In this document: positions 12,418 to 37,450 of the stretch, in pieces
Numbering within the stretch: position 1 is the stretch's first letter
How the letters are laid out: every line of letters starts with the position of its first letter
NCBI GenBank assembly: GCA_035063765.1
Contig: JAPSFT010000032.1
Span: 1 to 37,470, forward strand
Direction: 5' to 3'
DNA length: 37,470 nt
DNA from: Deltaproteobacteria bacterium
GTDB lineage: Bacteria; Myxococcota_A; UBA9160; PR03
Notes under the pieces: generated by a model
Seen by the model: the letters and a program-made list of their open reading frames with translations, nothing else
Database searches by the model: none
Told to the model about the DNA's origin: nothing
Program-made: the position numbers and the translations under genes

Positions 12418-13968
12418 GTGCCGGCCCCGAATCCCCCCGATCGCGTCCAGGTGATGGACACGACCCTGCGCGACGGCGAGCAGACGCCCGACGTCTCCTA
12501 CACGCCGGTCGAGAAGCTCCAGCTCGCCCGCATGCTGCTCACCGAGGTGCGCGTCGACCGGATCGAGATCGCCCAGACGCGCGTCTCCGAGGGCGAGCGG
12601 CTGGCCGCGCGGCGCATCGCGGGCTGGGCGAAGCGCGAGGGCCTCGCCGAGCGCGTCGAGATCATGGGCTACTGCGACGGCGAGCTCTCGGTGCGCTGGA
12701 TCAAGGGCGTGGGCGGCCGCGTCATGAACCTGCTCACCAAGGGCAGCGAGCGGCACTGCCGCGAGCAGCTCCGCCAGACCCCCGAGCAGCACCGCCAGAA
12801 CGTGGCGGCGACGATCCGCCACGCCCACAAGGCGCGCGTCGCGGTGAACGTCTACCTCGAGGACTGGTCGAGCGGCGTGCGCGAGTCCTTCGACTACGTG
12901 TTCGCGATGGTGCAGGCGCTGCGCGCGCTGCCGGTCGGGCGCCTCTACCTGCCCGACACGCTCGGGATCCTCGGACCCGAGGACACGGCCCGCTACGTGG
13001 CGCTGATGACGGCCACCTGGCCCGACCTCCACTTCGAGTTCCACGGCCACAACGACTACGGGCTCGCCACCGCCAACTGCCTGGCCGCCGTGCGCGCCGG
13101 CGCGCGCGGCGTCCACACCAGCGTGAACGGGATGGGCGAGCGCGCCGGCAACACACGGCTCGCCGAGGTGGTGGCCGCCCTCCACGACCAGACCCCCTTC
13201 CGCACCCAGGTGGACGAGACCCGCCTCGTCACCGCGTCGCGCCTGGTCGAGACCTTCAGCGGCAAGCTGGTGTCGGCCAACGCGCCGATCGTGGGCACCG
13301 ACGTCTTCACCCACTCGGGCGGCATCCACGCCGACGGCGACGCCAAGGGCGAGCTCTACACGACGGCGCTGGCACCGGCGCGCTTCGGGCGCGAGCGCCA
13401 CTACGCGCTCGGGAAGCTCTCGGGCAAGGCCTCGCTCGCGCACAACCTGCGCACGCTCGGCATCGAGCTCTCCGACGAGGAGCGCACCCGCGTGCTCGGC
13501 CGGATCGTCGAGCTCGGCGACCGGAAGCACGCGGTCGGCCCCGCGGACCTGCCCTACCTCATCGCCGACGTGCTCGGGCGCCCCGAGCAGCGGCCCGTGC
13601 GGATCGAGTCGTACCGCGTGCTGGTGTCGTCTTCGGGCCTGCCGGAGGCCGAGGTCGAGGTGTCGATGCGCGGCCAGCGCCAAGCCGCCAAGGCCCACGG
13701 CGACGGCGGCTACGACGCCTTCATGCGCGCGCTAGCGAAGGCGCTGAAGCCCTTCGCCCTGGCCCTGCCGCGCCTGGCCGACTACCGGGTGCGGATCCCG
13801 CCGGGCGGCCACACGAGCGCGCTCGTCCAGACGGTGATCACCTGGCAGGGCGAGGGCGGGGAGGAGGGCACCTACTCGACGCTCGCCGTGGACTCCGACC
13901 AGCTCGCCGCCGCCGTGCTCGCCACCGAGAAGATGCTGAACGCGCTGGTGATGCGGACGGGGAAGTGA
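12418..13968 (+). CDS. 2-Isopropylmalate / citramalate / homocitrate synthase-family enzyme
   Basis: Acyl-CoA Claisen condensation enzyme of 516 residues in the DRE-TIM metallolyase family. The TIM barrel has MDTTLRDGEQT (13-23; R18 and D19 catalytic/metal), the divalent-metal motif HGHND (209-213), NGMGERAGN (237-245) and FTHSGGIHADG (298-308). The C-terminal region, about 390-510, is a LeuA-dimer-like regulatory domain (GGYDAFMRALAK, DYRVRIPPGG, TYSTLAVDSDQL). The reaction could be leucine synthesis (2-isopropylmalate), the citramalate route to isoleucine, or homocitrate; sequence alone does not decide. GTG at 12418 is preferred because it places DTTLRDG near residue 14. It shares a GTGA with the lipoprotein gene that follows, an unusual pairing. 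Confidence 0.9.
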   Translation: MPAPNPPDRVQVMDTTLRDGEQTPDVSYTPVEKLQLARMLLTEVRVDRIEIAQTRVSEGERLAARRIAGWAKREGLAERVEIMGYCDGELSVRWIKGVGGRVMNLLTKGSERHCREQLRQTPEQHRQNVAATIRHAHKARVAVNVYLEDWSSGVRESFDYVFAMVQALRALPVGRLYLPDTLGILGPEDTARYVALMTATWPDLHFEFHGHNDYGLATANCLAAVRAGARGVHTSVNGMGERAGNTRLAEVVAALHDQTPFRTQVDETRLVTASRLVETFSGKLVSANAPIVGTDVFTHSGGIHADGDAKGELYTTALAPARFGRERHYALGKLSGKASLAHNLRTLGIELSDEERTRVLGRIVELGDRKHAVGPADLPYLIADVLGRPEQRPVRIESYRVLVSSSGLPEAEVEVSMRGQRQAAKAHGDGGYDAFMRALAKALKPFALALPRLADYRVRIPPGGHTSALVQTVITWQGEGGEEGTYSTLAVDSDQLAAAVLATEKMLNALVMRTGK

Positions 13969-14939
13969 GGCGGGCGGGCGTCCTGCTCGTCGCGGGGATC
14001 GCGGCCTCCGTGCTCGGCGCCTGCGCCGGCCGCGCGCCCGCGCCCGCCGACCCGAAGTACCAGCCGACCGGCGACGTGCTCGAGGTCGTGGCCCTGCTGC
14101 GCCGCCACGTGCCGGACGACACCTACCGCTTCGAGCCGGCCCGCGACTTCACGGGCCGCAACGTGTACCGCGCCTCGCTGATCCGGCTCGAGAGCCTCGA
14201 GCGCGTGCACGCCGACGCGCTGCGCGCCGGCCACCTCGACGACGTGATCGCGTTCGCGAAGGGCCGCGCCCTCGAGCGCCTGCGCGCCTACGACCTGGCC
14301 GCCGCGCAGTACCGGCGCGCGGCGGAACGCGAAGGCGAGCTCCACGACGACGCGCTCCACAGCGCGGCGCTCTGCGACGCGCTCGCCGAGGCGATCGCGC
14401 TCGGCTACGAGCCCGACCGGCCGCTCCCGGAGGGCGCGGAGCGGGTCCCGCCGCCGGCGAGCGCCGAGGCCGCGATCGCCGGCTTCGACCGCCGCGTGGC
14501 CCTGCTCGAGGCCGTCGAGCACGAAGCTGCGGGCGGGCACCAGGTCTCCATCGCGCGCGAGGAGATCGAGCGGGCCGACCGCGCTCGCGCGCGCTGGTTC
14601 GTGGCGCGGCGCAAGATCGCGCCCGACGGTGACGTGCGCGCGATCGCCGAGCTGCAGCGGCTGGTGGCGCGCCACCGCGAGAGCCGCAACGCGAACCGCA
14701 ACCTGCTCGAGCTCGCGGACCTCTACGCGCAGCTCGCCGAGGAGTACGTGGAGTCGCACCCGCCCGAGAGCCTGTGGTTCGACCCCGCCGTGTTCCAGGA
14801 TCTGGTCGACGCCGCCTCGCGGCTCTTCGAGGCCGTGGCGAACCAGGACGGCGCCCCCGAGAAGCTCGAGGCCGGGCGCCGGCTCGAGGCCTTCATCGCC
14901 TTCACGCTGCGGGTCGACCGCGACCGCTTCAGCCCCTGA
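13965..14939 (+). CDS. Lipoprotein of unknown function, helical
   Basis: A 324-residue protein with a lipoprotein signal (MRRAGVLLVAGIAASVLGAC, lipobox LGAC, Cys20). The rest is strongly helical, with TPR-like pieces such as GRALERLRAYDLAAAQYRRAAEREGELHDDALHSAALC and RNLLELADLYAQLAEEYVESHPP, although no clean repeat set is visible. There is no catalytic motif. It starts with GTG in a GTGA overlap with the stop of the leuA-like gene, so it is translated with that enzyme. Another, larger lipoprotein follows after 35 bases; the two probably work together in the envelope. I do not recognise the family. Confidence 0.85.
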   Translation: MRRAGVLLVAGIAASVLGACAGRAPAPADPKYQPTGDVLEVVALLRRHVPDDTYRFEPARDFTGRNVYRASLIRLESLERVHADALRAGHLDDVIAFAKGRALERLRAYDLAAAQYRRAAEREGELHDDALHSAALCDALAEAIALGYEPDRPLPEGAERVPPPASAEAAIAGFDRRVALLEAVEHEAAGGHQVSIAREEIERADRARARWFVARRKIAPDGDVRAIAELQRLVARHRESRNANRNLLELADLYAQLAEEYVESHPPESLWFDPAVFQDLVDAASRLFEAVANQDGAPEKLEAGRRLEAFIAFTLRVDRDRFSP

Positions 14940-14974: not shown

Positions 14975-17320
14975 ATGAGCGATCGGCAGCGGAAGGCGCG
15001 GCGACCCCGCGCGGGCGCGCGGGTCGGGCTCCTCGCGGTCGCCGCGCTCGCGGCCGCATCCTGCGCGAGCCTGCGGGGCGGCGGCGACGAGCTCGCGCCG
15101 CCGCCCGCGCTCGCGGCGCCCGGCACGCCCGACCCGCTCGCCGCGCTCCCCACGCGCGGGACCCCGCTCCCCGACGCACCCGACTTCGCGGCCCACGACC
15201 TCGCGGCGGCCACGCTCGCCGGCACGCCCGAGGCCGCGCTCGGCGCGCAGCGGCGGCTCGAGGAGCTGGAGCGCGAGCGGGCGCGGGCGGGCGCGCCCCC
15301 GAGCGGGCTCGCAGCGCGGGGCCGCTACCTCCTCGACGCCACCGAGCCGGACCCGATCGCGCGCCGCCGCGCCAGCGCCGCGCTGCTGCGCCGCGACGAC
15401 GTCGACCCGGCCCTGCGCCGCCGCCTGGAGCTCGAGGTGGCGGACGACCCGCTCGAGCTCGCCGACGCGCGCATCGACGACGCGCGCCGCGCGCGCGTGG
15501 CGCGCGGCGTGAACGCGCTCTCCGAGGCCGCCGGCCGCTCGCTCACCTCCACCGTCTTCGCGCCGATCCGGATCGCGCAGGCGCTGGTCGGTGTCGCGGT
15601 CGCCGAGCACATGGACGACCCGATCAGCGTCCAGGAGCGCCAGGCGCTGGCGCACTGGAAGCAGTACGTCGAGACCAACCCGGGCTCGCCCGAGACGCCG
15701 GCGCTGCTCGGCCGCATCGAGAAGATGCAGCGCCGCTGGCTCGAGTCGAAGCGCGAGCGCGGCGTGCGCACGGCGCGGCTCGCGCTCGAGCGCGGGCAGG
15801 ACGAGGCGGCGCTGGTGCTGGCCTCGCGCGCGCTCCTCTACGCGCCCGAGGATCCCGAGGCGGCGGCGCTGCGCAACGAGGCGGAGCGCCGCGTCGAGGC
15901 GTGGCGCCGGGCGCGCGCGAACAGCCTCGAGGCGGCGCCCGCCCTGCCCCCCGGAGCGACGGGCCCGCCGGCCGCGGCCCTGGCCCGGGCGCTCCTCGAT
16001 CCCGAGGGCGACGTGCCGGGCGCGGCCGCCGCGCTGCTCGCGAGCGGCGGCAGCGAGGGCCCCCTCGCCGACGAAGCGCGCTTCGCCGAGGCGCTCGCGG
16101 CCGGCGAGCGCGGGGAGGAGTCGCGCGGCTGGGAGCTGCTCGGCCGGGTCTCGGGCGAGCGCGGCCCGGACCGCGAGATGGCCCGCCATGCGGCCTGGCT
16201 GATCGCGAGCCCCGAGACGAACCCCTTCGCGGCCTTCCAGGCCGCGCGCGTCGATCACGCCGGCGAGCGTGCGAACTTCGTGCTGCTCGGGCCGCTCGCG
16301 CGCGGCGCGCGCGACCGGGACCTGCCGCGGCCGGTCGAGTACCTGCTCGAGGGGCCGTCGCTGCTCGGCACGATCGGGGGGATCCCCTCGCGCCTGCTCC
16401 AGGCGCTGGTCGTCACCAAGCCGGCGCGCGCACCCGCGATCCACGCGCGCCGCTACCTGGCGCGCCACCCCGACGGTGCGCGCAGCGACGAGGTGCGCGA
16501 GTGGCTGATCGGCTACTCCCAGGACAGCGGCAACGCGCTCGCCGCCTGGGAGCTCGCGCGCGACGGCGGCGAGGCCGACCCCGAGCGCCTGGCCGAGCTC
16601 GAGCGCGAGGCCGCCCGGCAGATGCTCGAGACCGCGCAGAAGCAGAAGCGCCAGGACCTGCGGCTCACGATGCTCGGCATGATCGCGAAGGACCACCCCG
16701 ACACCGAGGCCGGTCGCCGCGCCGGCGAGCTGGCGCACCAGGAGCTGACCCAGGCCACCGTCCAGAGCATCCGGATCACGCGCGGCTTCCTGCTCGAGAA
16801 CCCGGAGATCGCCGGGCCGAACGGCGTGGGGCTGCGCCCGGAGCTGCTCGACGGCCGGGCCTACGGCGGCGAGCTGCACCCCGACGGCGTGCGTCTCGTC
16901 GGCGGCCGCGTGCTCGAGTTCTCGCTCGTGGCGCCCGGCGGCGACGAGGACGACCCGCCGGAGCTGCTCCGCCGGGAGGTCTCGAGAGAGCGGCTCGCGC
17001 GGCTCGTGGCGCTGCTCGAGGAGACCACGATCCACAACGCACTCCTCGACCCGCTCGACGAGACCGCGCCCGACGCGCGCCGCGACCACTTCTTCGAGCG
17101 CGCCAAGCTCGGCGTCGCGGACGCCCCGGACACGCGGCCCTCGGCGACCTCGACCTACACCTTCGTGGGCGTGCGCGAGAAGTACGGGATGGTGCGCAGC
17201 CGCGAGTCGATCCTGCCCGTCGAGCTCGTCGTGCAGGGGTCGTTCCCGGACCTCGGGCTCGGCGCGTTTCCGCGCCTGCGGATGCCGAAGAAGACGCCGG
17301 ATGCGGTGTTGTACCAATAG
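14975..17320 (+). CDS. Large lipoprotein of unknown function, TPR/HEAT-like helical
   Basis: A 781-residue protein with a basic N-terminus, a hydrophobic segment and a lipobox-like AASC (Cys30). A Pro/Ala linker follows, then helical repeats to about residue 600 (for example RTARLALERGQDEAALVLASRALLYAPEDPEAAALRNEAERRVEAW reads as TPR-like pairs). A central hydrophobic stretch (RSLTSTVFAPIRIAQALVGVAV, about 190-211) may contact the membrane. The last 150 residues look beta-rich and end ...LGAFPRLRMPKKTPDAVLYQ. A GAGGAGGG ribosome site precedes the ATG. It follows the smaller lipoprotein in the same unit. No enzyme motif is visible; an envelope scaffold or assembly role is a guess. Confidence 0.85.
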   Translation: MSDRQRKARRPRAGARVGLLAVAALAAASCASLRGGGDELAPPPALAAPGTPDPLAALPTRGTPLPDAPDFAAHDLAAATLAGTPEAALGAQRRLEELERERARAGAPPSGLAARGRYLLDATEPDPIARRRASAALLRRDDVDPALRRRLELEVADDPLELADARIDDARRARVARGVNALSEAAGRSLTSTVFAPIRIAQALVGVAVAEHMDDPISVQERQALAHWKQYVETNPGSPETPALLGRIEKMQRRWLESKRERGVRTARLALERGQDEAALVLASRALLYAPEDPEAAALRNEAERRVEAWRRARANSLEAAPALPPGATGPPAAALARALLDPEGDVPGAAAALLASGGSEGPLADEARFAEALAAGERGEESRGWELLGRVSGERGPDREMARHAAWLIASPETNPFAAFQAARVDHAGERANFVLLGPLARGARDRDLPRPVEYLLEGPSLLGTIGGIPSRLLQALVVTKPARAPAIHARRYLARHPDGARSDEVREWLIGYSQDSGNALAAWELARDGGEADPERLAELEREAARQMLETAQKQKRQDLRLTMLGMIAKDHPDTEAGRRAGELAHQELTQATVQSIRITRGFLLENPEIAGPNGVGLRPELLDGRAYGGELHPDGVRLVGGRVLEFSLVAPGGDEDDPPELLRREVSRERLARLVALLEETTIHNALLDPLDETAPDARRDHFFERAKLGVADAPDTRPSATSTYTFVGVREKYGMVRSRESILPVELVVQGSFPDLGLGAFPRLRMPKKTPDAVLYQ

Positions 17321-25233: not shown

Positions 25234-25770
25234 GTGACGCGCGTGATCGGACGTGTTCTGACGATCGCCTTCGCGGCGGTCGGGCTTGCGATGTTGTCGC
25301 CGCAGGTCGTGAGTGCCGACGAGGTGGGCGGTGAGGAGATCGAGGTTCCCCCGCGCGCCGCGGCTCCCACGCCGGAGCCCGTGGTCGTGACCAAGGAGGT
25401 GCCGGTGTCGGCGCCGCCGCCGCCCTTCGTCGAGCTCGAGCGCAAGAGCGTCGGCGCGGGCCTCGGCCTGAGCTGGGGCGAGGGCACGATCTACTGGGAG
25501 GGCCAGGAGCACGCGTTCAGCGTGAAGGGCCTCCGCGTGGGCGACGTCGGTCTCGCCAAGATGATCGGCGAGGGCCACGTGCAGAACCTCGCGAGCCTCG
25601 AGGACTTCGCCGGCACCTACGTGGCCGTCGGCGCGGGCGCGACCGCCGGCAAGGGCGCGTCGGCCGTGACGATGCGCAACGAGAACGGGGTCGTGATCTC
25701 CCTGCGCTCGCAGTCGGAGGGCGTGGCCCTGAACCTGGGCGCCGAGGGCTTCCAGGTCGAGCTCCAGTAG
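25234..25770 (+). CDS. Small secreted protein with a Gly-rich beta domain, unknown
   Basis: A 178-residue protein with a signal peptide (basic MTRVIGR, a hydrophobic core, likely cut after VVSA, residue 28). A Pro-rich linker runs to about residue 65 (PPRAAAPTPEPVV...SAPPPP). The globular domain then runs to the end: SVGAGLGLSWGEGTIYWEG, FSVKGLRVGDVG, VQNLASLEDFAGTYVAVGAGATAGKG, NENGVVISLRSQSEGVALNLGAEG. This repeated beta/Gly pattern resembles small proteobacterial periplasmic proteins usually left as hypothetical; I cannot name the family with confidence. The GTG start at 25234 has AAAGGAG six bases upstream. It stands alone, followed by a strong hairpin. Confidence 0.85.
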   Translation: MTRVIGRVLTIAFAAVGLAMLSPQVVSADEVGGEEIEVPPRAAAPTPEPVVVTKEVPVSAPPPPFVELERKSVGAGLGLSWGEGTIYWEGQEHAFSVKGLRVGDVGLAKMIGEGHVQNLASLEDFAGTYVAVGAGATAGKGASAVTMRNENGVVISLRSQSEGVALNLGAEGFQVELQ

Positions 25771-25890: not shown

Positions 25891-26604
25891 ATGCGCCTTC
25901 CGCTGCTCCTCGCCTCCGCCGGGATCCTCGTCGTGGCCTTCGGCTGCGCCTCCTCGCCCTCGGGCGGTGGGGGCGCCCGGCAGTTCGACTGGTTCTCCCA
26001 GGGCGGGCTCAACGGCGGGGACGACCTCTGGTACGCGAAGGTCGAGGAGTGGCAGGGCCGGGCCCGCGCCGAGGGCACGCGGCTGCCGAAGACCGAGCGC
26101 AGCCTGCGAAGCGCCGAGTTCTCGGGCCAGCTCCTCTTCTCGATGGCCGCCTTCCGTGACAGCGAGCGCCGCGAGCTCGCCCGGCGCATCACCGACTGGA
26201 CCCAGCGCATCGCCCGCAAGCACTACAAGTTCGACCCGGGCAACAACGACCCGGTCTACGACCGCTGGCCGACGGTCGGCGAGCTGCTCGCGAACAACGG
26301 CGACGACTGCGACGGCCTCGACCTGATCGCCTTCCAGCTCCTGCGCGAGTTCGGCTTCCCGCCCGAGCAGATCTACCGGGGCATCGTGCGCCGCAACAAG
26401 GACGACGCGAACCACATGGTGACGCTCTGGTTCGAGGATCCGCACGATCCGTGGATCCTGGACGCCACGGGGGCCGTGACGGTGCAGTTCCGGCGCGCCT
26501 CCGAGCTGCCCGGGTGGACCCCGACCAAGCTCTTCAACCTCTCCGAGCAGTTCAACGTCGTCGAGAGGCCGGCCGGCGGGCGGCCTCTCGCCGCCGGCGA
26601 ATGA
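25891..26604 (+). CDS. Lipoprotein with a transglutaminase-like Cys/His/Asp triad
   Basis: A 237-residue protein with a lipoprotein signal (MRLPLLLASAGILVVAFGC, Cys19) and a Ser/Gly linker. The globular part has NNGDDCDGLDLIAFQLLREFGF with Cys140, NHMVTLWFEDP with His175 and WILDATGAV with Asp191. This order and spacing is the transglutaminase/papain-like arrangement of the bacterial cysteine proteinase (BTLCP) group, so a periplasmic peptidase or amide-bond enzyme is likely (inference). A TTATCCT box lies just before the ATG, suggesting a very short leader. The exported dikinase-like gene follows after 46 bases on the same strand, which places both in one unit. Confidence 0.85.
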   Translation: MRLPLLLASAGILVVAFGCASSPSGGGGARQFDWFSQGGLNGGDDLWYAKVEEWQGRARAEGTRLPKTERSLRSAEFSGQLLFSMAAFRDSERRELARRITDWTQRIARKHYKFDPGNNDPVYDRWPTVGELLANNGDDCDGLDLIAFQLLREFGFPPEQIYRGIVRRNKDDANHMVTLWFEDPHDPWILDATGAVTVQFRRASELPGWTPTKLFNLSEQFNVVERPAGGRPLAAGE

Positions 26605-26650
26605 GGGCACGGCGATCGCGCAAACCGACGCTCCCACGAGGATCCGCGCC

Positions 26651-29600
26651 ATGCGACACCGAGGCCGCGCCGCCCTGCTCGTGTCCCTGGTCCTGCTCGC
26701 GGCCGGGTCCGCCGCCGCGCAGCCGCTCCCGCCGCCGGACACGCTTCGCAGCTGGATCGTCGGCTTCAAGGAATCCGAGCGCGGTCCCTTCGAGCTGATC
26801 CGCTGGTTCTGCCACGACGGGCGGATCCGCCCGGCGCGCGCCGGCTGCGGCGGCGAGAACATGGGCGTCCAGCACGGCGACTGGAACCCGCAGGCGCGGG
26901 CGATGCGCGCGAACGGCTACGCCGTCGCAAACGTCCTGGTGGCGCTCGAGCCGCAGCGCTTCGTCGGGCCGGATGCCGACCTCGACGCCTGGACCCAGAT
27001 CCTGCTCGAGCGCTTCCTCGTCGGCTTCGACGACGGCTGGATCTTCCGCGGCGCCTACGGCTACCGCGGCGCCTTCCAGATCGAGGACGAGGAGAAGGCG
27101 GCGCGCCAGATCGTCCTGGCGATGCTCGCCGACCGCCGCTGGCGCGATCCCGGCCGCTTCTTCCTGCTGCGCGAGTCGGTGCGCCTGCTGCCGCTCTCGC
27201 TCGACACCGCCTCGGCCGCCGAGGTGCGCGCACGCGCCATGCAGCTCGCCGCGCGCGACCCGGGCTTCGCCTCGCTGCGCGCGAAGATCCACAGCTTCCC
27301 CGACGGCGACGACGCCCTGCGCGTGCGCGAGTACGCCGCGCAGGGGCGCGCCGGGATGCGCGGCGACTACGAGTCGCTGGCCGAGCAGATCGAGCGCCTC
27401 TACGCGCCCGAAGGCGCCGCCAAGGCGGTGCTGGCGCTGGCGCCGATCATCGGGCACGGCGACGTCGCGAAGCAGCTCCGCGAGAAGAGCGACGAGTTCG
27501 CGGCCGAGGTCAACATGGGGCGGCGCTTCGCCGCCGCCGCCAAGCTGCTGCGCCTCCTGCGCGAGTCCTTCCCGGAGATCGACGACCCCGAGGTCGCGCT
27601 GCGCACCCTGATGACGAGCCTCGCGCTCGAGCGCGAGGCCTACGCCGCCGGCGCGGAGGCGCTCACCAGGCTCGCGAGCTCGACGCGGCGCAGCCGGCTG
27701 TGGCTGATGGCGTACGGCGCCGAGGCGCTCTACGGCATCGGCGTCCTCGGCCCGCGCGAGCTCGCCGAGGCCGAGGCCGCCGTGAAGAGCATCGAGTCGC
27801 GCAACCCGACCCTGCGCCAGTACCGCGAGGTGGTGCTCTACCTGTCGCGGATTCCCGAGTGGAGCGGGCTGCGGCTCGACTTCCGCTTCGGCCGCCAGAT
27901 CCAGCGCTGGGCGCCCTTCGAGCCGCTCGTCCGGCAGTACCCCGTCGACCGCCTGCGCGGGAGCCCCCTGCTCTTCTACAGCGGCGTCCTCGACACGATG
28001 GTCGCCGACGCCAACGAGCGGGCCGGCGTGATCCACGAGGTGATGGGCGAGCGGGTGGGGGGCGGCTTGCGCGCGCTCAACCCGGGCCTCGCGCGCGGCG
28101 TGCTGCGCGCCGCCGACGACGGCGCGCACATGGACCGCCTCGACCCGAAGGGCATCTACCTGCTCCCGGAGACCACGCCCGACATCTCTCCGGTGTCGGG
28201 GATCCTGACGCGCGGTGCGGGCAGCTCGGTCTCGCACGTCCAGCTCCTGGCGCGCAACCTCGGCATCCCGAACGTGCTCGTGAACGAGGATCTGGTGGCG
28301 CGGCTGCGCGACGAGGCGGGCGCCCGCGCGGTGCTGGCCGTGAGCCCCGGCGGCGCGGTGCGGCTCGCCGCCGACGGCAGCCAGTGGGACGCCGTCTTCG
28401 GCGTCGAGAGCCAGGCCCCGCGCGACGCGCTGCTCCAGCCCGACATGCTGAAGATCGACCTCGCCACGACCACGCCGATCCCGCTCGCGAACCTGCGCGC
28501 GCTCGACGCCGGCCGCGTGTGCGGCCCGAAGGGCGCGAACCTGGGCGAGCTGCGCTTCCACTTCGGCCGCCAGGTGCCCGACGGCTTCGTGATCCCCTTC
28601 GGCGCCTTCCGGCGCTTCCTCGACGAGCCGATCGAGAAGGGCGGGCCCTCGGCGTGGACCTGGCTCGCGGGCCGTTACGACGAGATCCAGCGCGCCGGTA
28701 TGGGGAGCGCGCGCGGCCGGCGGCTCGCCGAGGAGACCCTCGCGCGGCTGCGCCGCTTCATCGCCGAGGCCCCCTTCGTGCCGGGCTTCGAGACCGATGT
28801 CGAGTGGGCGCTGCGCGAGCAGTTCGGCGCGCCCGGCCGCTACGGCGTGTTCGTGCGCAGCGACACCAACGTCGAGGACCTGCCCGGCTTCACCGGCGCC
28901 GGGCTCAACCAGACGGTGCCGAACGTGGTCGGCAACGAGGCGATCCTCGCGGCCATCCGCACGGTCTGGGCCTCGCCCTTCAGCGAGCGCTCCTTCGCCT
29001 GGCGCCAGTCCCACATGAGCGATCCCGAGAACCTCTTCGCCTCGGTCGTGGTGCAGGAGGCGTTCCCGGCCGAGAAGTCCGGCGTGCTGGTGACGGTGGA
29101 CGTCGAGGACGGGAGCCGGAAGTGGCTCACGATCGCAACCAACGAGGGCGTCGGCGGCGCCGTCGACGGCCAGGCCGCGGAGGTCCTGCTGGTGAACGCC
29201 TCGAGCGGCGTGACCCGGCTGCTCGCGCCGGCGGCCACGCCGATGAAGCGGGTGCTCTCGCCCCGCGGCGGCATCGTCGAGGAGCGGGCCAGCGGCACCG
29301 AGTGGGTGCTCCAGCCCGGTGAGGTGCGCCAGCTCGTGCGGCTCGCGCGCGAGGTGCCGGAGAAGCTCGCGACGATGCGCACCGCCACCGGCGAGCCGAT
29401 CCCGGCCGACGTCGAGTTCGCGTTCGCGGACGGGCGGCTGGCGCTGCTCCAGATCCGGCCCTTCAACGAGAGCAAGCGCGCGCAGCGCAGCCAGTACCTG
29501 GCCCAGCTCGACGCCGAGGCGCGCGGGCGCGACGACGAGCCGGTGTGGATCGGCGGCGTGCCGGGCCGGCCGGATCCGGCGGCCGAGGCCGCGAAGAAGC

Positions 29601-29683
29601 AGGAGGAAGAGCGGGTGGCTGCCGAGGAGGCCGCGCAGAAGGCCGCCGAGCGGCGCGACCGCCAGCGCAGGGGGGTCCGATGA
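26651..29683 (+). CDS. Exported dikinase-like protein: phosphohistidine swivel domain followed by PPDK/PEP-synthase-type ATP-binding domain
   Basis: A 1010-residue protein with a textbook Sec signal (MRHRGRAALLVSLVLLAAGSAAA, cut before Gln24). Residues 30-500 are mostly helical and unassigned, apart from a Cys/His-rich patch (FCHDGRIRP, CGGENMGVQHGDW, 53-78). Residues about 500-575 match the PEP-utiliser mobile domain: SVSHVQLLARNLGIPNV with the phospho-acceptor His529. Residues about 605-940 match the PPDK N-terminal ATP domain: CGPKGANLGEL (Lys627), FVRSDTNVEDLPGFTGAG (Arg736, Glu742, Asp743), SGVLVTVD and LALLQIRP (Gln934, Arg936). The tail from 970 is a charged coil. Swivel-before-ATP is the order of glucan water dikinases; PPDK and rifampin phosphotransferase put the ATP domain first. 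The substrate is unknown. Its stop overlaps the next gene (ATGA). Confidence 0.88.
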   Translation: MRHRGRAALLVSLVLLAAGSAAAQPLPPPDTLRSWIVGFKESERGPFELIRWFCHDGRIRPARAGCGGENMGVQHGDWNPQARAMRANGYAVANVLVALEPQRFVGPDADLDAWTQILLERFLVGFDDGWIFRGAYGYRGAFQIEDEEKAARQIVLAMLADRRWRDPGRFFLLRESVRLLPLSLDTASAAEVRARAMQLAARDPGFASLRAKIHSFPDGDDALRVREYAAQGRAGMRGDYESLAEQIERLYAPEGAAKAVLALAPIIGHGDVAKQLREKSDEFAAEVNMGRRFAAAAKLLRLLRESFPEIDDPEVALRTLMTSLALEREAYAAGAEALTRLASSTRRSRLWLMAYGAEALYGIGVLGPRELAEAEAAVKSIESRNPTLRQYREVVLYLSRIPEWSGLRLDFRFGRQIQRWAPFEPLVRQYPVDRLRGSPLLFYSGVLDTMVADANERAGVIHEVMGERVGGGLRALNPGLARGVLRAADDGAHMDRLDPKGIYLLPETTPDISPVSGILTRGAGSSVSHVQLLARNLGIPNVLVNEDLVARLRDEAGARAVLAVSPGGAVRLAADGSQWDAVFGVESQAPRDALLQPDMLKIDLATTTPIPLANLRALDAGRVCGPKGANLGELRFHFGRQVPDGFVIPFGAFRRFLDEPIEKGGPSAWTWLAGRYDEIQRAGMGSARGRRLAEETLARLRRFIAEAPFVPGFETDVEWALREQFGAPGRYGVFVRSDTNVEDLPGFTGAGLNQTVPNVVGNEAILAAIRTVWASPFSERSFAWRQSHMSDPENLFASVVVQEAFPAEKSGVLVTVDVEDGSRKWLTIATNEGVGGAVDGQAAEVLLVNASSGVTRLLAPAATPMKRVLSPRGGIVEERASGTEWVLQPGEVRQLVRLAREVPEKLATMRTATGEPIPADVEFAFADGRLALLQIRPFNESKRAQRSQYLAQLDAEARGRDDEPVWIGGVPGRPDPAAEAAKKQEEERVAAEEAAQKAAERRDRQRRGVR

Positions 29684-31041
29684 AGTGGAGCGCGGCGTGG
29701 ATCCTGGCGCTGTCCTGCTGGCTCGCACCGGCGGGCGCGCGCGCGTACCCGGTCGACGCCTGGGACGAGACCGGCATCCAGCGGCTGCTCGCCTTCGACC
29801 TCGCGCGCGCCCCGCTGCTCGAGCAGGGCGGCGCCGTGCCGGGCGGCCTGTGGTCGAAGCAGCAGGTGCGGCTGCGCCTGGTCGGCGTCGACTTCCGGAT
29901 GCCGCGCCCGGACCCGGCCTTCAGCGGCGAGATCCGCCGCCTGCTCGGCGGCGACGCCGGCGGCTACGGCGTCGTGGTGCTCGACCTCTCGGACCCGAAG
30001 CGGCCGCTGCTCGCCGAGCACAACGGGGGCTTCACCCAGATCCCGGGCAGCGTCGGCAAGATCATGGTGGCGCTCGCCTGGTTCCAGGCGCTCGCGGACC
30101 TCTATCCGAAGGACGTCCACGCGCGCAACCGGCTGCTCGCGGAGACCGTCGTCACCGCCGACGCCTTCATCCAGAACGACAAGCACGACGTGCCGGTCTG
30201 GCATCCCGGCGACCCGCGCGTGCTGCGCCGCCCGATCGCGCTCGGCGACCAGGCGAACCTGTGGACCTGGATGGACTGGATGATCTCGGCGTCGTCGAAC
30301 GCGGCGGCGAGCCAGATGATGGCGCACCTGGTCCTGCTGAAGCACTACGGCGCCGCCTACGACGGCTCGCCGGCCCAGGCGGCCGCGTTCTGGGCGCGCG
30401 GCAGCGGCGCGGCGGGGATCCTGTCGAACGCGATGGCACGCGCGGCGCGCGGGAGCGGCCTCGACCCGGGCCAGCTCTCCCAGAACAGCCTCTTCACCCG
30501 CACCGGCCGGGCGCGCATCCCGACCAGCGGCAGCACCTCGACCCCGCGCGGGCTCCTCACCTACCTGGTGCGGATGGAGCAGGGCAAGCTCGTCGACCCG
30601 TGGTCGAGCCTCCAGATCAAGCGCCTGCTCTACCTCTCCGACGTGCGGATCCGCTACGCCTCGCAGCCCGCGCTCGCCGACTCGGCCGTCTACTTCAAGT
30701 CCGGCTCGCTCTACGGCTGCCGCACCGAGCCCGGCTTCGACTGCGGCAAGTACCACGGCAACACCAAGAACTACATGAACTCGATCGCCGTCGTGGAGAG
30801 CGAGGAGGACGGCCGGTCGCTGCACTACATCGCGGTGGTGCTCTCGAACGTCCTGCGCAAGGACTCGACCGACGTGCACCGCGAGCTCGCGCTCGGCATC
30901 CACCGCGCGATCGAGGCCCGCCACGGGGTGCGCCCGAAGCCGATGCTCGCGCCCGCCACCGAGCCCTCCCCCGCCACCGCGGACGCACCGGTCCCGAAGA
31001 AGCCCCCCGAGGTCGAGCCCCTTCAGCGCGACGACGAGTGA
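29680..31041 (+). CDS. Exported class-A beta-lactamase-fold serine hydrolase
   Basis: A 453-residue periplasmic protein. The signal peptide is MKWSAAWILALSCWLAPAGARA. All three motifs of the penicillin-recognising fold are present: S124-V-G-K127 in IPGSVGKIMVALAWF, S205-S-N207 in ISASSNAAASQMM (like the SDN loop) and K340-S-G342 in VYFKSGSLYG (like KTG). Two Cys in GCRTEPGFDCGKYHG near 347-355 may form a disulfide beside the active site. The C-terminal 40 residues are Pro-rich and disordered. It is longer than class A beta-lactamases (about 290), so a peptidoglycan or other amide/ester substrate is as likely as beta-lactams. The ATG overlaps the dikinase stop, indicating co-translation. The 3' end overlaps the convergent gene by 19 bases. 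Confidence 0.88.
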   Translation: MKWSAAWILALSCWLAPAGARAYPVDAWDETGIQRLLAFDLARAPLLEQGGAVPGGLWSKQQVRLRLVGVDFRMPRPDPAFSGEIRRLLGGDAGGYGVVVLDLSDPKRPLLAEHNGGFTQIPGSVGKIMVALAWFQALADLYPKDVHARNRLLAETVVTADAFIQNDKHDVPVWHPGDPRVLRRPIALGDQANLWTWMDWMISASSNAAASQMMAHLVLLKHYGAAYDGSPAQAAAFWARGSGAAGILSNAMARAARGSGLDPGQLSQNSLFTRTGRARIPTSGSTSTPRGLLTYLVRMEQGKLVDPWSSLQIKRLLYLSDVRIRYASQPALADSAVYFKSGSLYGCRTEPGFDCGKYHGNTKNYMNSIAVVESEEDGRSLHYIAVVLSNVLRKDSTDVHRELALGIHRAIEARHGVRPKPMLAPATEPSPATADAPVPKKPPEVEPLQRDDE

Positions 31042-33876: not shown

Positions 33877-36800
33877 TCAGCACCGCTGCGCGGTCTGGAG
33901 CAGCCTGCACATGCGGTCGACGAGCTTCATCTCGTCCACCGACCGGCACGCCGCCGTCGCCAGGCGCGGCTCGCCGACGACGACGGCGAGGCACTGGGCG
34001 CGCGAGACCGCGACGTTGAGCCGGCTCGGGTCGAAGAGGAAGCGGATCCCGCGCGCGGAGAGCTGCGCCTCGCTCGCGCACATCGAGACCAGCACGACGG
34101 GAGCCTGCTGCCCCTGGAAGCGGTCGACCGTGCCCACCCGCACGCCCGCCGGCAGGGCGGCCTCGAGCTTGCGGACCTGGAGGTTGTAGGGGGCGACCAC
34201 GAGCAGATCGTCCGGCCCGAGCGGTCGGGTGCGGCCGTCGTGGTCCGTGAAGGGCCGGCCGAGGAGCTCGCAGGCGAGCCCGGCCACCACCGCCGCCTCC
34301 TCGTCGCTGCCCTGGGTGTTGCCCTGGTGCGCGACCGGCACGAAGACGAGCCCGCCGCCGACGGCGGCGAGGCGGCCGGCGCGGGCGGCTGGGGGCGGCG
34401 GGCCCAGGCGGCGGCCCGCGTTCCCGGCGTCGGGCTCGAGGCGGCCCGCGTAGAAGGCCTGCGACACGTAGGCGCAGATCTCCGGGCGCAGCCGGTGCGT
34501 GCGCTCGAGGAAGAGCCCGCGCTCGGCCGGCACGATCGTCTCGCCGGCCAGCGCGTAGTCGAGCGCCGAGAGCCCGCTCGCGCCGGGGTGCACGCCGCGG
34601 GTCGGCTGCGAGAGCTGGAGCTGGTCGCCGACCAGCACCAGGTTGCGCGCCGCGCGGCTCATCCCGACCAGGTTCGCGAGCGAGACCTGGCTGGCCTCGT
34701 CCACGAAGAGGTAGTCGAGCCGGCCGGCGAGATCGGCGCGGCTGAAGCACCAGGCCGTAGCGCCGACGAGGGGCGTCGTGGCGAGACTGGCGGCGACGCC
34801 GCTCGAGCTGGCGAGGTGGCGGGCGCCCGCGAAGCGCGGGACGTCGCCGGGGGAGTCGCCGCCGACCTTCAGGCACGCGAGCGCGCCACCGGCCTCGCGG
34901 GCGCAGGCCTCCATCAGGTTCACGATCGCCCGGTGGCTGTGCGAGGTGATGCCGACGGTGCGGCCCGCGTCGAGCAGTGCCAGGATCACGCGCGCGCTCT
35001 CGGTCGTCTTGCCGGAGCCCGGCGGGCCCTGCACGCAGAGGAGCGAGCCGTCGAGGCCGCGGGCCGCACGCAGGAAGGCGCCGGCGAGCGGCTCGCCGGC
35101 GCGGCGGACCGGGGCGCCACACTCGTGGCCGCGGATCTGGGGCGGGCGGCGGAGCAGGAGATCGCGGAGCGCGGGCGGCAGGTCGCCCGACGCGTGGAAG
35201 CGCTCGGCGAGCGTGCCGATCGCCTCCTCGATGACCTCCGTGCCGCGGTAGTCGAAGCGGATCAGGCAGACCCGCTCTGGCAGCGCCGCGAGCCCCGCCT
35301 TCGCGAGCTTGTCGGGCGAGATCTTGAGCACGATGCGGCCCGCGCGCTCGTCGAGCTCGGCCACCGACACCTGGGCGTCGAGGCACTGCGCGAGGCGGCC
35401 GCCGTCGCCGGCGGCGATGCGCGAGTCCTGCGCCGGGTCGAAGGCGTACTCGAAGCCGAGCGACTGCTGGAGCGCGAAGGGCGGGCGCGGCGTGCGCTGC
35501 AGCCCCGCGAGGCACGCGAGCTGCTCGAAGCGCTCGTCCTCGCGCAGCCCGGCCAGCTCGAAGAGCTCCCACCACGCGGGTCGCGCCTCGCGGTGGTGGA
35601 ACTCGAGGAGCTGCGCCAGGAGCTCCTGGACGCCCCAGCGCTCCCCGTCGGCCGCGCGCTCGGCCTCGCTCGCGGGGATCCGCGCCAGCATCCGCTCGGC
35701 CAGCGCGCGGCGCCCGCGGCGCGCCTCGCGCGCCTCGCTCGGGGGCCGCTCGTCCTGCTCGCGGCGCCCGAGCGGCTGGAAGCCGATCCCGGCCGCGCCC
35801 GCCTGCCCGCGCAGCCAGCCCGCGAGCTCGAAGGTCGAGCGGCAGTCCTCCTCGTTGTAGTCGCGGATCCGGCGCAGGAGCGGCGAGGCTCCGGGGTCGG
35901 CCGGCTCGCCGGCCTGGCGCCAGGCGTCGTACACCACCACCGACTCCATCCCGCCCTGGACGGCGCCCGCGCGCGGCGCCCGGTAGAGGCGCTCCACGTT
36001 CTTCAGCGAGTAGCGCGGCTCCCCGATCCGCACGCCGTGACGCACGAGCGCGTAGAGGTCGACGAAGACCTGGCCGCGGAGCAGCTCGTCGAGGGCCTCC
36101 TCGCGGACGGCGTAGCGCCCGGCGAGGCGCCGCAGCACCGCGACCTCGTAGCCGCCGTAGTGGTAGACGCGCAGGTCCGGGAAGCGCCGCCGGCGCTCCA
36201 CCAGCCAGTCGAGGAACGACGCGAAGGCGCGCTGCTCGGCGGCTGCGTCGTGCGCCCACCAGGCGTGGTAGGCGGGCATCCCGTCCTCGCCCCGGTACAC
36301 GACGCCCCACAGGTACTCGAGGCCGTCCTGCTCGAGCGGGTCGCCCTCGAGGTCGAAGGCCACGTCGCCGGGCGAGGCCGGAGGCAGGAGCGCCAGGCCA
36401 CGCCCGGCCTCCCCCTCGCCGGGCGCGAGCACGCGGTGGCGCGGCGGGGGCGGCGCCGCGGCGGAGTCGCGCTGGAGGCGCGCCTGCTCGCGCAGGCGGG
36501 CGAAGGTGCGCTCGTCGATCCCGGGAACACGGGCGCGCGTCGCGCCCGCGAGCCCCGTCAGGGTCTCGATCCCGGCCGCCGCGAGCCGCCGCTGCTGCGC
36601 CGCCGTGCAGCCCGCGACGAGGCTCACGTGGTCGCACGCCGCGAGCCGCCGCTCCGCCTCCTCCTGCCAGCGCCCGTGGTCGGCCGCGGGATCGGGGAGC
36701 GGCGCGCCGTCCGGCGTCCAGCCCGCGAGGAAGGCCTCGAACGAGGCCCGCAGCGCGCGGTAGAAGGCGAACACCTCCTCGCTGCGCAGCGTCTCGTGGC

Positions 36801-37335
36801 TCCCGTCGCCTAGCTCGACCCGGAGCTCCGCCGGCCGCACGCCCTGGACCGCCTCCAGGAGGTCCGCGTAGCAGCAGAGCTGGAGCCAGTGCGAAGGCCG
36901 CGCCCGGCGCGCCAGCTTCGCGTCCCACACCGTGTAGTGGAAGTCGCCGAGCCGAGACGCCCCCGGCACGCGCACCAGGAAGTCCGCGATCCCCGCGAAG
37001 GGCGCGGCCTCGAGATGGGCCTGGTAGATCAGCTCGTAGCCCGCCTGCATCGCCTCGCGCGTGTGCGCAGGCCCCTTCGGGTCGTGCGGCTCGAGCGCGA
37101 GCACCTGCCGGCCCTCGCCGCGCAGCCGCTCGAGCACCCGCGCCTCGTGCTCGAAGCCGCGGCGCTTCAGGAGCTCCCCGTAGCCGGGCAGGGACGCCGG
37201 GTCGCCCGCGTCCGCCGCCGGCCGTGCCTCCGGGTGGTCGAGCGCGTAGCGGCTCATCCAGGTGGCGAAGGGCGAGCGGAGGTACTCGCTCAGGTCGCTC
37301 GGTGAGAAGAAGAGCTGGAAGGCGCGGCGGTGCAT
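33877..37335 (-). CDS. Fused RecB/Cas4-like nuclease, YprB-type exonuclease and Upf1-like SF1 helicase (TM0106 family)
   Basis: A 1152-residue protein. Residues 1-205 are a PD-(D/E)xK nuclease: IADFL (Asp118), YTVWDAK (Asp138, Lys140), LQLCCY (Gln152). A short helix-hairpin-helix-like part follows (about 240-285). Residues 324-510 are an RNase H-fold exonuclease of the YprB type: VAFDLEGDP (Asp328, Glu330), VFVDLYALV (Asp426), YNEEDC (Asp497). Residues 730-1150 are an SF1 helicase: Walker A GPPGSGKTT (770-778), Walker B LFVDEAS (876-882), VLVGDQLQLSQP (900-911), VGTVDRFQGQQ (1067-1077) and SRLNVAVSRAQ (1104-1114). All key residues look intact. The ATG at 37335 follows GGAG. The role is probably DNA or RNA end processing in repair or defence; it has no partner gene here. 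Confidence 0.92.
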   Translation of the reverse strand: MHRRAFQLFFSPSDLSEYLRSPFATWMSRYALDHPEARPAADAGDPASLPGYGELLKRRGFEHEARVLERLRGEGRQVLALEPHDPKGPAHTREAMQAGYELIYQAHLEAAPFAGIADFLVRVPGASRLGDFHYTVWDAKLARRARPSHWLQLCCYADLLEAVQGVRPAELRVELGDGSHETLRSEEVFAFYRALRASFEAFLAGWTPDGAPLPDPAADHGRWQEEAERRLAACDHVSLVAGCTAAQQRRLAAAGIETLTGLAGATRARVPGIDERTFARLREQARLQRDSAAAPPPPRHRVLAPGEGEAGRGLALLPPASPGDVAFDLEGDPLEQDGLEYLWGVVYRGEDGMPAYHAWWAHDAAAEQRAFASFLDWLVERRRRFPDLRVYHYGGYEVAVLRRLAGRYAVREEALDELLRGQVFVDLYALVRHGVRIGEPRYSLKNVERLYRAPRAGAVQGGMESVVVYDAWRQAGEPADPGASPLLRRIRDYNEEDCRSTFELAGWLRGQAGAAGIGFQPLGRREQDERPPSEAREARRGRRALAERMLARIPASEAERAADGERWGVQELLAQLLEFHHREARPAWWELFELAGLREDERFEQLACLAGLQRTPRPPFALQQSLGFEYAFDPAQDSRIAAGDGGRLAQCLDAQVSVAELDERAGRIVLKISPDKLAKAGLAALPERVCLIRFDYRGTEVIEEAIGTLAERFHASGDLPPALRDLLLRRPPQIRGHECGAPVRRAGEPLAGAFLRAARGLDGSLLCVQGPPGSGKTTESARVILALLDAGRTVGITSHSHRAIVNLMEACAREAGGALACLKVGGDSPGDVPRFAGARHLASSSGVAASLATTPLVGATAWCFSRADLAGRLDYLFVDEASQVSLANLVGMSRAARNLVLVGDQLQLSQPTRGVHPGASGLSALDYALAGETIVPAERGLFLERTHRLRPEICAYVSQAFYAGRLEPDAGNAGRRLGPPPPAARAGRLAAVGGGLVFVPVAHQGNTQGSDEEAAVVAGLACELLGRPFTDHDGRTRPLGPDDLLVVAPYNLQVRKLEAALPAGVRVGTVDRFQGQQAPVVLVSMCASEAQLSARGIRFLFDPSRLNVAVSRAQCLAVVVGEPRLATAACRSVDEMKLVDRMCRLLQTAQRC

Positions 37336-37395
37336 GGGGGGACTCCGGGAGGGATACCCCACTGTCGGCTGGGGGTGTGGCGGATCAGGTCATAA

Positions 37396-37450
37396 GCGGG
37401 GACAGACCCGGCGATCCGGCGATTCGCCGGATCGCCCGGTCAGTCCCCGC
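37396..37450. repeat. 55-nt near-perfect palindrome, REP/RAYT-like
   Basis: Two 26-base arms (37396-37421 and 37425-37450) differ at only two positions and enclose a 3-base ATT loop. The outer ends read GCGGGGAC and GTCCCCGC, and the left arm contains GGGGACAGACCC. That motif is common in REP-type repeats tied to Y1 (IS200-like, RAYT) transposases. It lies 60 bases upstream of the nuclease-helicase start codon, so it could also affect that gene's promoter. I see no transposase in the window. Confidence 0.75.

Follow-up and report, generated by a model that had tools for sequence, protein, structure and literature searches.

How could an enzyme of a class that runs on ATP work outside the cytoplasmic membrane? 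The question is raised by a gene at positions 26651 to 29683 (+ strand) of contig JAPSFT010000032.1 from a Deltaproteobacteria bacterium (assembly GCA_035063765.1), which was analysed over a stretch of 37,470 nucleotides (the window). The predicted product joins a signal peptide to the catalytic domains of a PPDK_N/PEP-utilising dikinase, and an earlier note made from the sequence had placed it in a "compartment without ATP". That premise fails as stated, because ATP has been measured in the periplasm of Escherichia coli (PMC7432876) and because the gene is tied across genomes to a TLC/NTT-family carrier of the ATP/ADP type. The conserved partners of the dikinase, which the earlier note had missed, are the main finding. 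Many environmental bacteria appear to export an intact dikinase whose gene sits with those for exported hydrolases of the cell-wall type and for a carrier related to the ATP carriers of parasites and plastids, which suggests powered phosphorylation outside the cell membrane, in a space previously believed to have no ATP at hand.

A predicted exported dikinase family

The open reading frame starts with ATG and encodes 1010 residues, as the earlier note had it. From the N- to the C-terminus, the protein is laid out as a signal peptide, a helical N-terminal domain, a phosphohistidine domain, an ATP-grasp (PPDK_N) domain and a charged C-terminal helix. Its features in the window are as follows.

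26651..29683, + strand: predicted exported dikinase, 1010 residues (ATG-start open reading frame; Pfam; structure model, pLDDT 84.5; relatives found in a further 23 genomes from the order and at 320 loci of GTDB representatives)
26651..26719, + strand: predicted signal peptide, residues 1-23, cut AAA/Q24 (hydropathy 2.82; comparable N-termini in 78/79 relatives, a count whose bias is weighed below)
26720..28030, + strand: mostly helical N-terminal domain, residues 24-460, candidate acceptor-binding domain (model m0deffa4a2578, pLDDT 91.5)
28037..28420, + strand: phosphohistidine swivel domain, residues 463-590 (PF00391, 22.2 bits; Enzyme I overlay, Z 9.3)
28235-28237, + strand: codon of catalytic His529 (invariant in 80/80 sequences and in a diverged clade)
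28463..29476, + strand: ATP-grasp domain, residues 605-942, with K627, R736, T755, E922, Q934 and R936 (PF01326, E 7e-35; RPH, Z 32.3)

The Pfam search matched PPDK_N (PF01326) to residues 624-951 (E 7e-35, 121 bits against a cut-off of 27) and the PEP-utilisers mobile domain (PF00391) to residues 504-553, the latter at 22.2 bits and thus marginally below its cut-off of 23.1; no other Pfam family matched the protein at E<=1. An AlphaFold2 model of the whole protein, built from 28 sequences, reached a pLDDT of 84.5 and a pTM of 0.81. In this model, residues 605-942 superposed on the ATP domain of rifampin phosphotransferase (RPH) over 306 residues (Z 32.3, rmsd 2.3), and residues 463-590 superposed on the N-terminal region of Enzyme I (Z 9.3). 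The opposite strand is also open (26552-29728); we rejected the reading of the gene as an artefact, because both the domains and the conservation at the protein level lie on the + strand.

Next, we paired the catalytic residues with those of RPH by phmmer alignment (K627=K22, R736=R117, T755=T136, E922=E297, Q934=Q309, R936=R311 and H529=H825). In RPH, Arg117 and Thr136 touch the alpha-phosphate, Lys22 touches the triphosphate, and His825 is the phosphate carrier (PMC4844700). Across 80 aligned sequences from Myxococcota, Desulfobacterota, Zetaproteobacteria and Gammaproteobacteria, H529, K627, R736 and T755 never varied, nor did E922, Q934 and R936 except for gaps in one or two rows; this pattern fits selection on a working ATP-to-histidine enzyme. 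The swivel histidine and intact ATP domain reported in the earlier note were thereby borne out by the Pfam matches, by both overlays and by the alignment. The note had also looked to relatives for a possible refutation: the ATP-grasp residues proved to be conserved among them, and nearly all relatives carry a signal-peptide-like N-terminus.

The family was sampled with an alignment-based profile scan of GTDB representatives, which yielded 320 loci. A single-sequence pattern scan of contigs had returned no relatives, its patterns being too specific. The best 80 relatives came from Myxococcota/"Deltaproteobacteria", Desulfobacterota, Zetaproteobacteria (including Mariprofundus ferrooxydans PV-1) and Gammaproteobacteria (including Guyparkeria, Halothiobacillus, Thioalkalivibrio, Sinimarinibacterium and Aestuariicella). 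When the genome of the window was searched together with 60 relatives, an orthologue of the main type was present in 24 of the 61 genomes, with full-length copies 46-78% identical, and the same search revealed a second, diverged clade of full-length dikinases at 30-34% identity. The catalytic residues checked in this clade were likewise invariant, and its N-termini were also signal peptide-like. Its cysteine pattern near the N-terminus differs (CxC...C...FC), and many of its host genomes also have the main type. One relative, in a gammaproteobacterial metagenome-assembled genome (L121), has an in-frame stop near the mature N-terminus, indicating either a decayed copy or a sequencing error.

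We looked for export signals across the family by hydropathy and by reading for AxA-type cut sites. The N-terminus of the window's dikinase (MRHRGRAALLVSLVLLAAGSAAA, followed after the predicted cut by QPLPPP) has a strong hydrophobic core with a 12-mer hydropathy of 2.82, and no further hydrophobic segment was found in the mature protein; the clean signal peptide with AAA before Gln24 that the earlier note described thus stands. Of the 79 relatives whose start could be read, 78 had a hydrophobic core near the N-terminus, as a rule together with a basic n-region and a small-residue cut site, and these N-termini have almost no sequence in common. Cys54 and Cys66 were invariant (80/80) and formed the sole conserved cysteine columns, and exactly two cysteines occur in the mature protein in 63 of the 80 sequences. 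A disulfide between Cys54 and Cys66 is, from this pattern, likely. A single kept pair in a protein otherwise depleted of cysteines is typical of exported disulfide proteins, and this sign is independent of how start codons were chosen. By hydropathy and cut sites, the family is thus predicted to leave the cytoplasm by way of Sec signal peptides.

The N-terminal domain was folded alone (residues 30-470, from 56 sequences), giving a mostly helical model with a small beta element that bears both cysteines (pLDDT 91.5). The earlier note had recognised nothing in the first ~500 residues, and this held for ~450: they had no match in Pfam or NCBIfam, and a Foldseek search with the model against the PDB and viral models gave none at E<=0.001. 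At its best, structural superposition covered 111 of the 441 residues with Z 8.6, which we set aside as within the chance range for helical proteins. On this model, a GWD, carbohydrate-binding or other known fold can be neither claimed nor excluded. The domain contains many almost invariant polar residues (D56, R86, E120, R139, Q143, E145, E147, R174, R193, K212, H214, D221, R304, E327 and R346), and because of its position, it should be the part that binds the acceptor.

Hydrolases and an NTT-family carrier beside the dikinase

The start of the gene that follows the dikinase in the window overlaps the dikinase stop (ATGA).

29680..31041, + strand: serine hydrolase 1, 453 residues, predicted to be exported, PF13354 (beta-lactamase2)-like, with SVGK, SSN and KSG motifs

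The SxxK, SSN and KSG motifs of hydrolase 1 were kept in 60-65 of 65 relatives. Clustering of the open reading frames around the 80 named-genome loci identified two further recurrent neighbours (large antisense clusters were discarded as GC-rich artefacts). One, hydrolase 2, is a second exported PF13354 serine hydrolase that belongs to a family distinct from hydrolase 1 and is usually convergent with it; the other is a membrane carrier of the TLC/NTT family. Named-genome loci whose downstream flank reached at least 4.5 kb numbered 52; of these, 48 had hydrolase 1, 47 had hydrolase 2 and 39 had the carrier, and the three occurred together in 37. In the diverged dikinase clade, an exported PF13354 hydrolase was adjacent in 7 of 7 loci (L021, L022, L023, L024, L025, L026 and L050:7797-10871), and no NTT was found in these stretches, except for one belonging to the main module in L050.

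We then evaluated the association between carrier and dikinase across whole genomes. In the window's order, the carrier type (>650 bits) occurred in 22 of the 61 genomes, which amounted to 22 of the 24 with the dikinase versus 0 of the 37 without it; 16 of these carriers were on the same contig within ~6 kb of the dikinase, and the rest lay mostly at contig breaks. Among 274 gammaproteobacterial genomes, 25 of them with the dikinase, the strong carrier type was found in 21 of the 25 versus 1 of the other 249, and 17 of the 22 strong carriers were within ~8 kb of the dikinase. The association was significant in both groups (one-sided Fisher test, P value = 1e-14 in the window's order and 2e-26 in the Gammaproteobacteria; both values ignore shared ancestry).

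The assignment of the carrier relied on profiles. Five of six single-domain carriers scanned exceeded the PF03219 cut-off (44-79 bits against 21), and the profile of the carriers from gamma-, zeta- and desulfobacterial loci matched the solved ADP,ATP carrier protein 1 (E 2.7e-18) and a chloroplast protein (E 4.6e-13). The myxococcotal carrier profile matched the same solved carriers at E 2.8e-8 and aligned with the other group over nearly its full length (hhalign, E 1.5e-37); because of these matches, we placed it in the NTT family too. All module carriers were far below the TIGR00769 cut-off (<=75 versus 387 bits). The module carrier is thus best taken as a relative within the NTT/TLC family whose exchange of ATP and ADP is putative, since homologues vary in what they carry; neither its substrate nor its direction of transport can be read from sequence. 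In some loci a longer relative takes the place of this carrier, as at L115:4597-6756 (- strand), where a TLC match is combined with weak HEAT similarity. At about 11 loci, the surroundings of the dikinase include a protein of ~1050 residues that contains a cyclic-nucleotide domain (for example, L057:2735-5893 on the - strand and L104:11294-14437 on the + strand); these proteins have no TLC match of their own and resemble the NTT-HEAT-cNBD fusions of Major et al. (PMC5381601).

Other genes of the window were also inspected. Hydrolase 1 is followed by genes for a DUF900 hydrolase, an SGNH hydrolase and an RNase H/helicase protein, the last of which (33877-37362, - strand) has no relation to the module and fuses an RNase H-like nuclease to a superfamily 1 helicase in 1161 residues (PF13482, PF13087). 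Two small genes upstream of the dikinase (25291-25770 and 25891-26604, both + strand) have no Pfam match; the second is lipoprotein-like, with a Cys/His/Asp pattern that recalls transglutaminase-like peptidases, and this pair is retained next to the dikinase within the same family, as well as at 8 of the 80 named-genome loci. Farther upstream are two adjacent lipoprotein-like genes of 324 and 781 residues (13965-14939 and 14975-17320, + strand), also without a Pfam match.

Comparison with characterised systems

RPH is a cytoplasmic enzyme, unlike the dikinase described here, which is predicted to be exported. The two share the ATP-grasp domain (Z 32), the swivel histidine, the ATP-binding residues and the use of a third domain for the acceptor, features also found in other small-molecule dikinases (HpeHI and PpsAB). 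In RPH, however, the order is ATP domain, acceptor domain and histidine, whereas here the histidine domain precedes the ATP domain, and the acceptor domains do not match each other. The NCBIfam model for RPH scored 101 bits against a cut-off of 999, in the ATP domain alone, so that the protein is not an RPH. It is not a PEP synthase either: that model reached 115 bits against a cut-off of 740, best in the ATP domain. PEP synthase and pyruvate phosphate dikinase have a homologous ATP domain and swivel histidine, but no PEP/pyruvate barrel was found here, and the domain order and predicted export differ. A PEP synthase involved in water survival of Legionella (PMC10117105) was considered and dropped, as it appears to be an ordinary ppsA with no link to the family.

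The earlier note had compared the protein with the plant enzymes GWD (glucan water dikinase) and PWD (phosphoglucan water dikinase), in which an acceptor region is followed by the histidine and then by the ATP domain. The domain order does match, with the histidine domain preceding an ATP domain at the C-terminus, and the likeness is limited to that order; there was no GWD-specific evidence. No starch-binding module (CBM45/CBM20) was among the Pfam matches at E<=1, although the presence of the CBM45 model in the library was unverified. The dikinase also differs from GWD and PWD in being bacterial and, by prediction, exported. In plastids, GWD phosphorylates starch with ATP that an NTT carrier brings into the compartment, and we regard this, by analogy, as a striking and useful parallel to the carrier and dikinase found together here. 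On the sequence and domain evidence, the protein belongs to the PPDK_N/PEP-utilising dikinase superfamily and is best regarded, within it, as representing a separate, predicted exported dikinase family.

The partners can be compared in the same manner. The carriers share PF03219 and the matches to solved ADP,ATP carriers with the NTT/TLC carriers of Chlamydia, Rickettsia, plastids and free-living bacteria (PMC5381601), and unlike those of parasites and plastids, the module carrier, known here from its sequence, occurs in free-living bacteria and is tied to an enzyme predicted to be exported. Both hydrolases resemble class A beta-lactamases and penicillin-binding serine hydrolases (PF13354) in their SxxK, SxN and K[ST]G motifs and signal peptides, but they form two distinct families locked to the dikinase. 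In the open-access papers searched, we found no description of an exported dikinase, a periplasmic GWD or an operon or module of NTT and dikinase.

A proposed periplasmic phosphotransfer and its alternatives

We consider it fairly probable that the protein is a periplasmic phosphotransferase, passing phosphate from ATP to histidine to an acceptor, within an envelope module of an NTT carrier and two hydrolases, and that it probably modifies an envelope polymer. This reading draws on the predicted export signal of the family, its intact catalytic residues and the conserved module with its co-occurrence; from them, we infer the use of ATP in the periplasm, the direction of transport and the nature of the acceptor. 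The ATP-grasp domain would move the beta-phosphate of ATP onto His529 of the swivel domain, which would then hand it to an acceptor held by the helical N-terminal domain. The overall reaction would be of the kind known from RPH, PEP synthase and GWD (ATP + acceptor + H2O -> AMP + Pi + phospho-acceptor), but set in the periplasm; we propose this chemistry because of the homology and the invariant sites. The carrier in the inner membrane would most probably swap nucleotides, letting ATP out, recovering AMP or ADP, or both, and would so enable the reaction; either role implies nucleotide chemistry in the periplasm. Because the hydrolases are of a penicillin-recognising type, the acceptor would most likely be an envelope polymer (peptidoglycan or a surface glycan) on which they also act. 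More tentatively, and with somewhat less confidence than doubt, we suggest a self-contained system of periplasmic phosphorylation in free-living Gram-negative bacteria, where the NTT carrier exports ATP and the exported dikinase, by means of an undescribed acceptor domain, phosphorylates an envelope polymer alongside the two exported hydrolases. Outward use of nucleotides has a precedent as a proposal, for Azoamicus and its host (PMC7969357).

Several points weigh against this reading. All of the evidence is comparative. The start-codon picker preferred hydrophobic starts, so that the signal-peptide count (78 of 79) is somewhat biased. The co-occurrence P values ignore shared ancestry, although mere inheritance of a block is made less likely by the recurrence of the link in several phyla, where gene order varies and the carrier is of two subtypes. 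Some dikinase loci, such as that of Mariprofundus, have no carrier nearby; the carrier type of the window's own order falls below the PF03219 cut-off (14 bits, L057); and, beyond the characterised clade, NTT homologues may transport NAD or show no measurable activity (PMC5381601). In the window's own genome (G000), hydrolase 2 and the carrier lie apart from the dikinase, at the very start of a different contig (G000:C23:59-2746). Both share 76-80% identity with their counterparts in the congener G001, which directly follow hydrolase 1 there. The right end of the window (37400-37446) and the start of contig C23 (G000:C23:1-52, L137) have an inverted repeat of ~37 bp in common, and because of it, the two may adjoin, which would put the carrier several kb downstream.

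The same genes could instead serve scavenging, with the dikinase and hydrolases processing extracellular nucleotides, glycans or small molecules and the carrier importing the resulting nucleotides; ATP would come from lysed neighbours or the cell itself, and none would be exported. Characterised NTTs of parasites do import nucleotides (PMC5381601), E. coli takes extracellular ATP into its periplasm (PMC7432876), and sequence does not give the direction of transport; yet the host genomes, judged by their size of about 2-6 Mb, are those of free-living bacteria rather than of nucleotide-dependent parasites, and the module joins the dikinase to SxxK hydrolases rather than to nucleotidases, which leaves scavenging unlikely. 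It is less probable still that the module detoxifies the envelope, phosphorylating an antibiotic or xenobiotic as RPH does while its beta-lactamase-like partners hydrolyse others. Among solved structures, RPH comes closest to the ATP domain, and both hydrolases match the beta-lactamase2 family, but the N-terminal half does not match the rifampin-binding domain, the RPH cut-off was clearly missed (101 versus 999 bits), and the linkage is kept across sediment, iron-oxidising and sulphur-oxidising bacteria.

An exported protein that turns over no ATP, acting as a nucleotide-binding sensor or using another phosphoryl donor, would accord with the hydrolysis of periplasmic ATP by phosphatases and nucleotidases (PMC7432876). 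We judge this just as improbable as detoxification, given that the full ATP-grasp and histidine set is invariant in 80 sequences and in a clade of 30% identity, which is unexpected for a pseudoenzyme, and that the gene co-occurs with a carrier of the ATP/ADP type. Finally, the N-terminal segment might be a membrane anchor that keeps the enzyme facing the cytoplasm, so that no unusual reaction would take place outside. Long hydrophobic segments do occur in a few relatives, and the topology was read from sequence; the basic n-region, the AxA-type cut sites, the lack of a second hydrophobic segment, the one invariant cysteine pair and the signal peptides of the partners make an anchor very improbable.

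Phosphotransfer in the periplasm, our preferred reading, bears on two existing questions. A review of ATP in the E. coli periplasm states that how it crosses the inner membrane is unknown and that Gram-negative bacteria have no known translocase homologue (PMC7432876), and Major et al. reported in 2017 that NTTs occur in many free-living bacteria, where their role is unknown (PMC5381601); both questions would gain a concrete, testable answer. If true, the reading would do away with the view that ATP-driven reactions have no place in the periplasm. Moreover, the N-terminal domain of unrecognised fold and the two hydrolases point to an unrecognised modification of the envelope, which would concern iron- and sulphur-oxidising, sulphate-reducing and myxococcotal bacteria.

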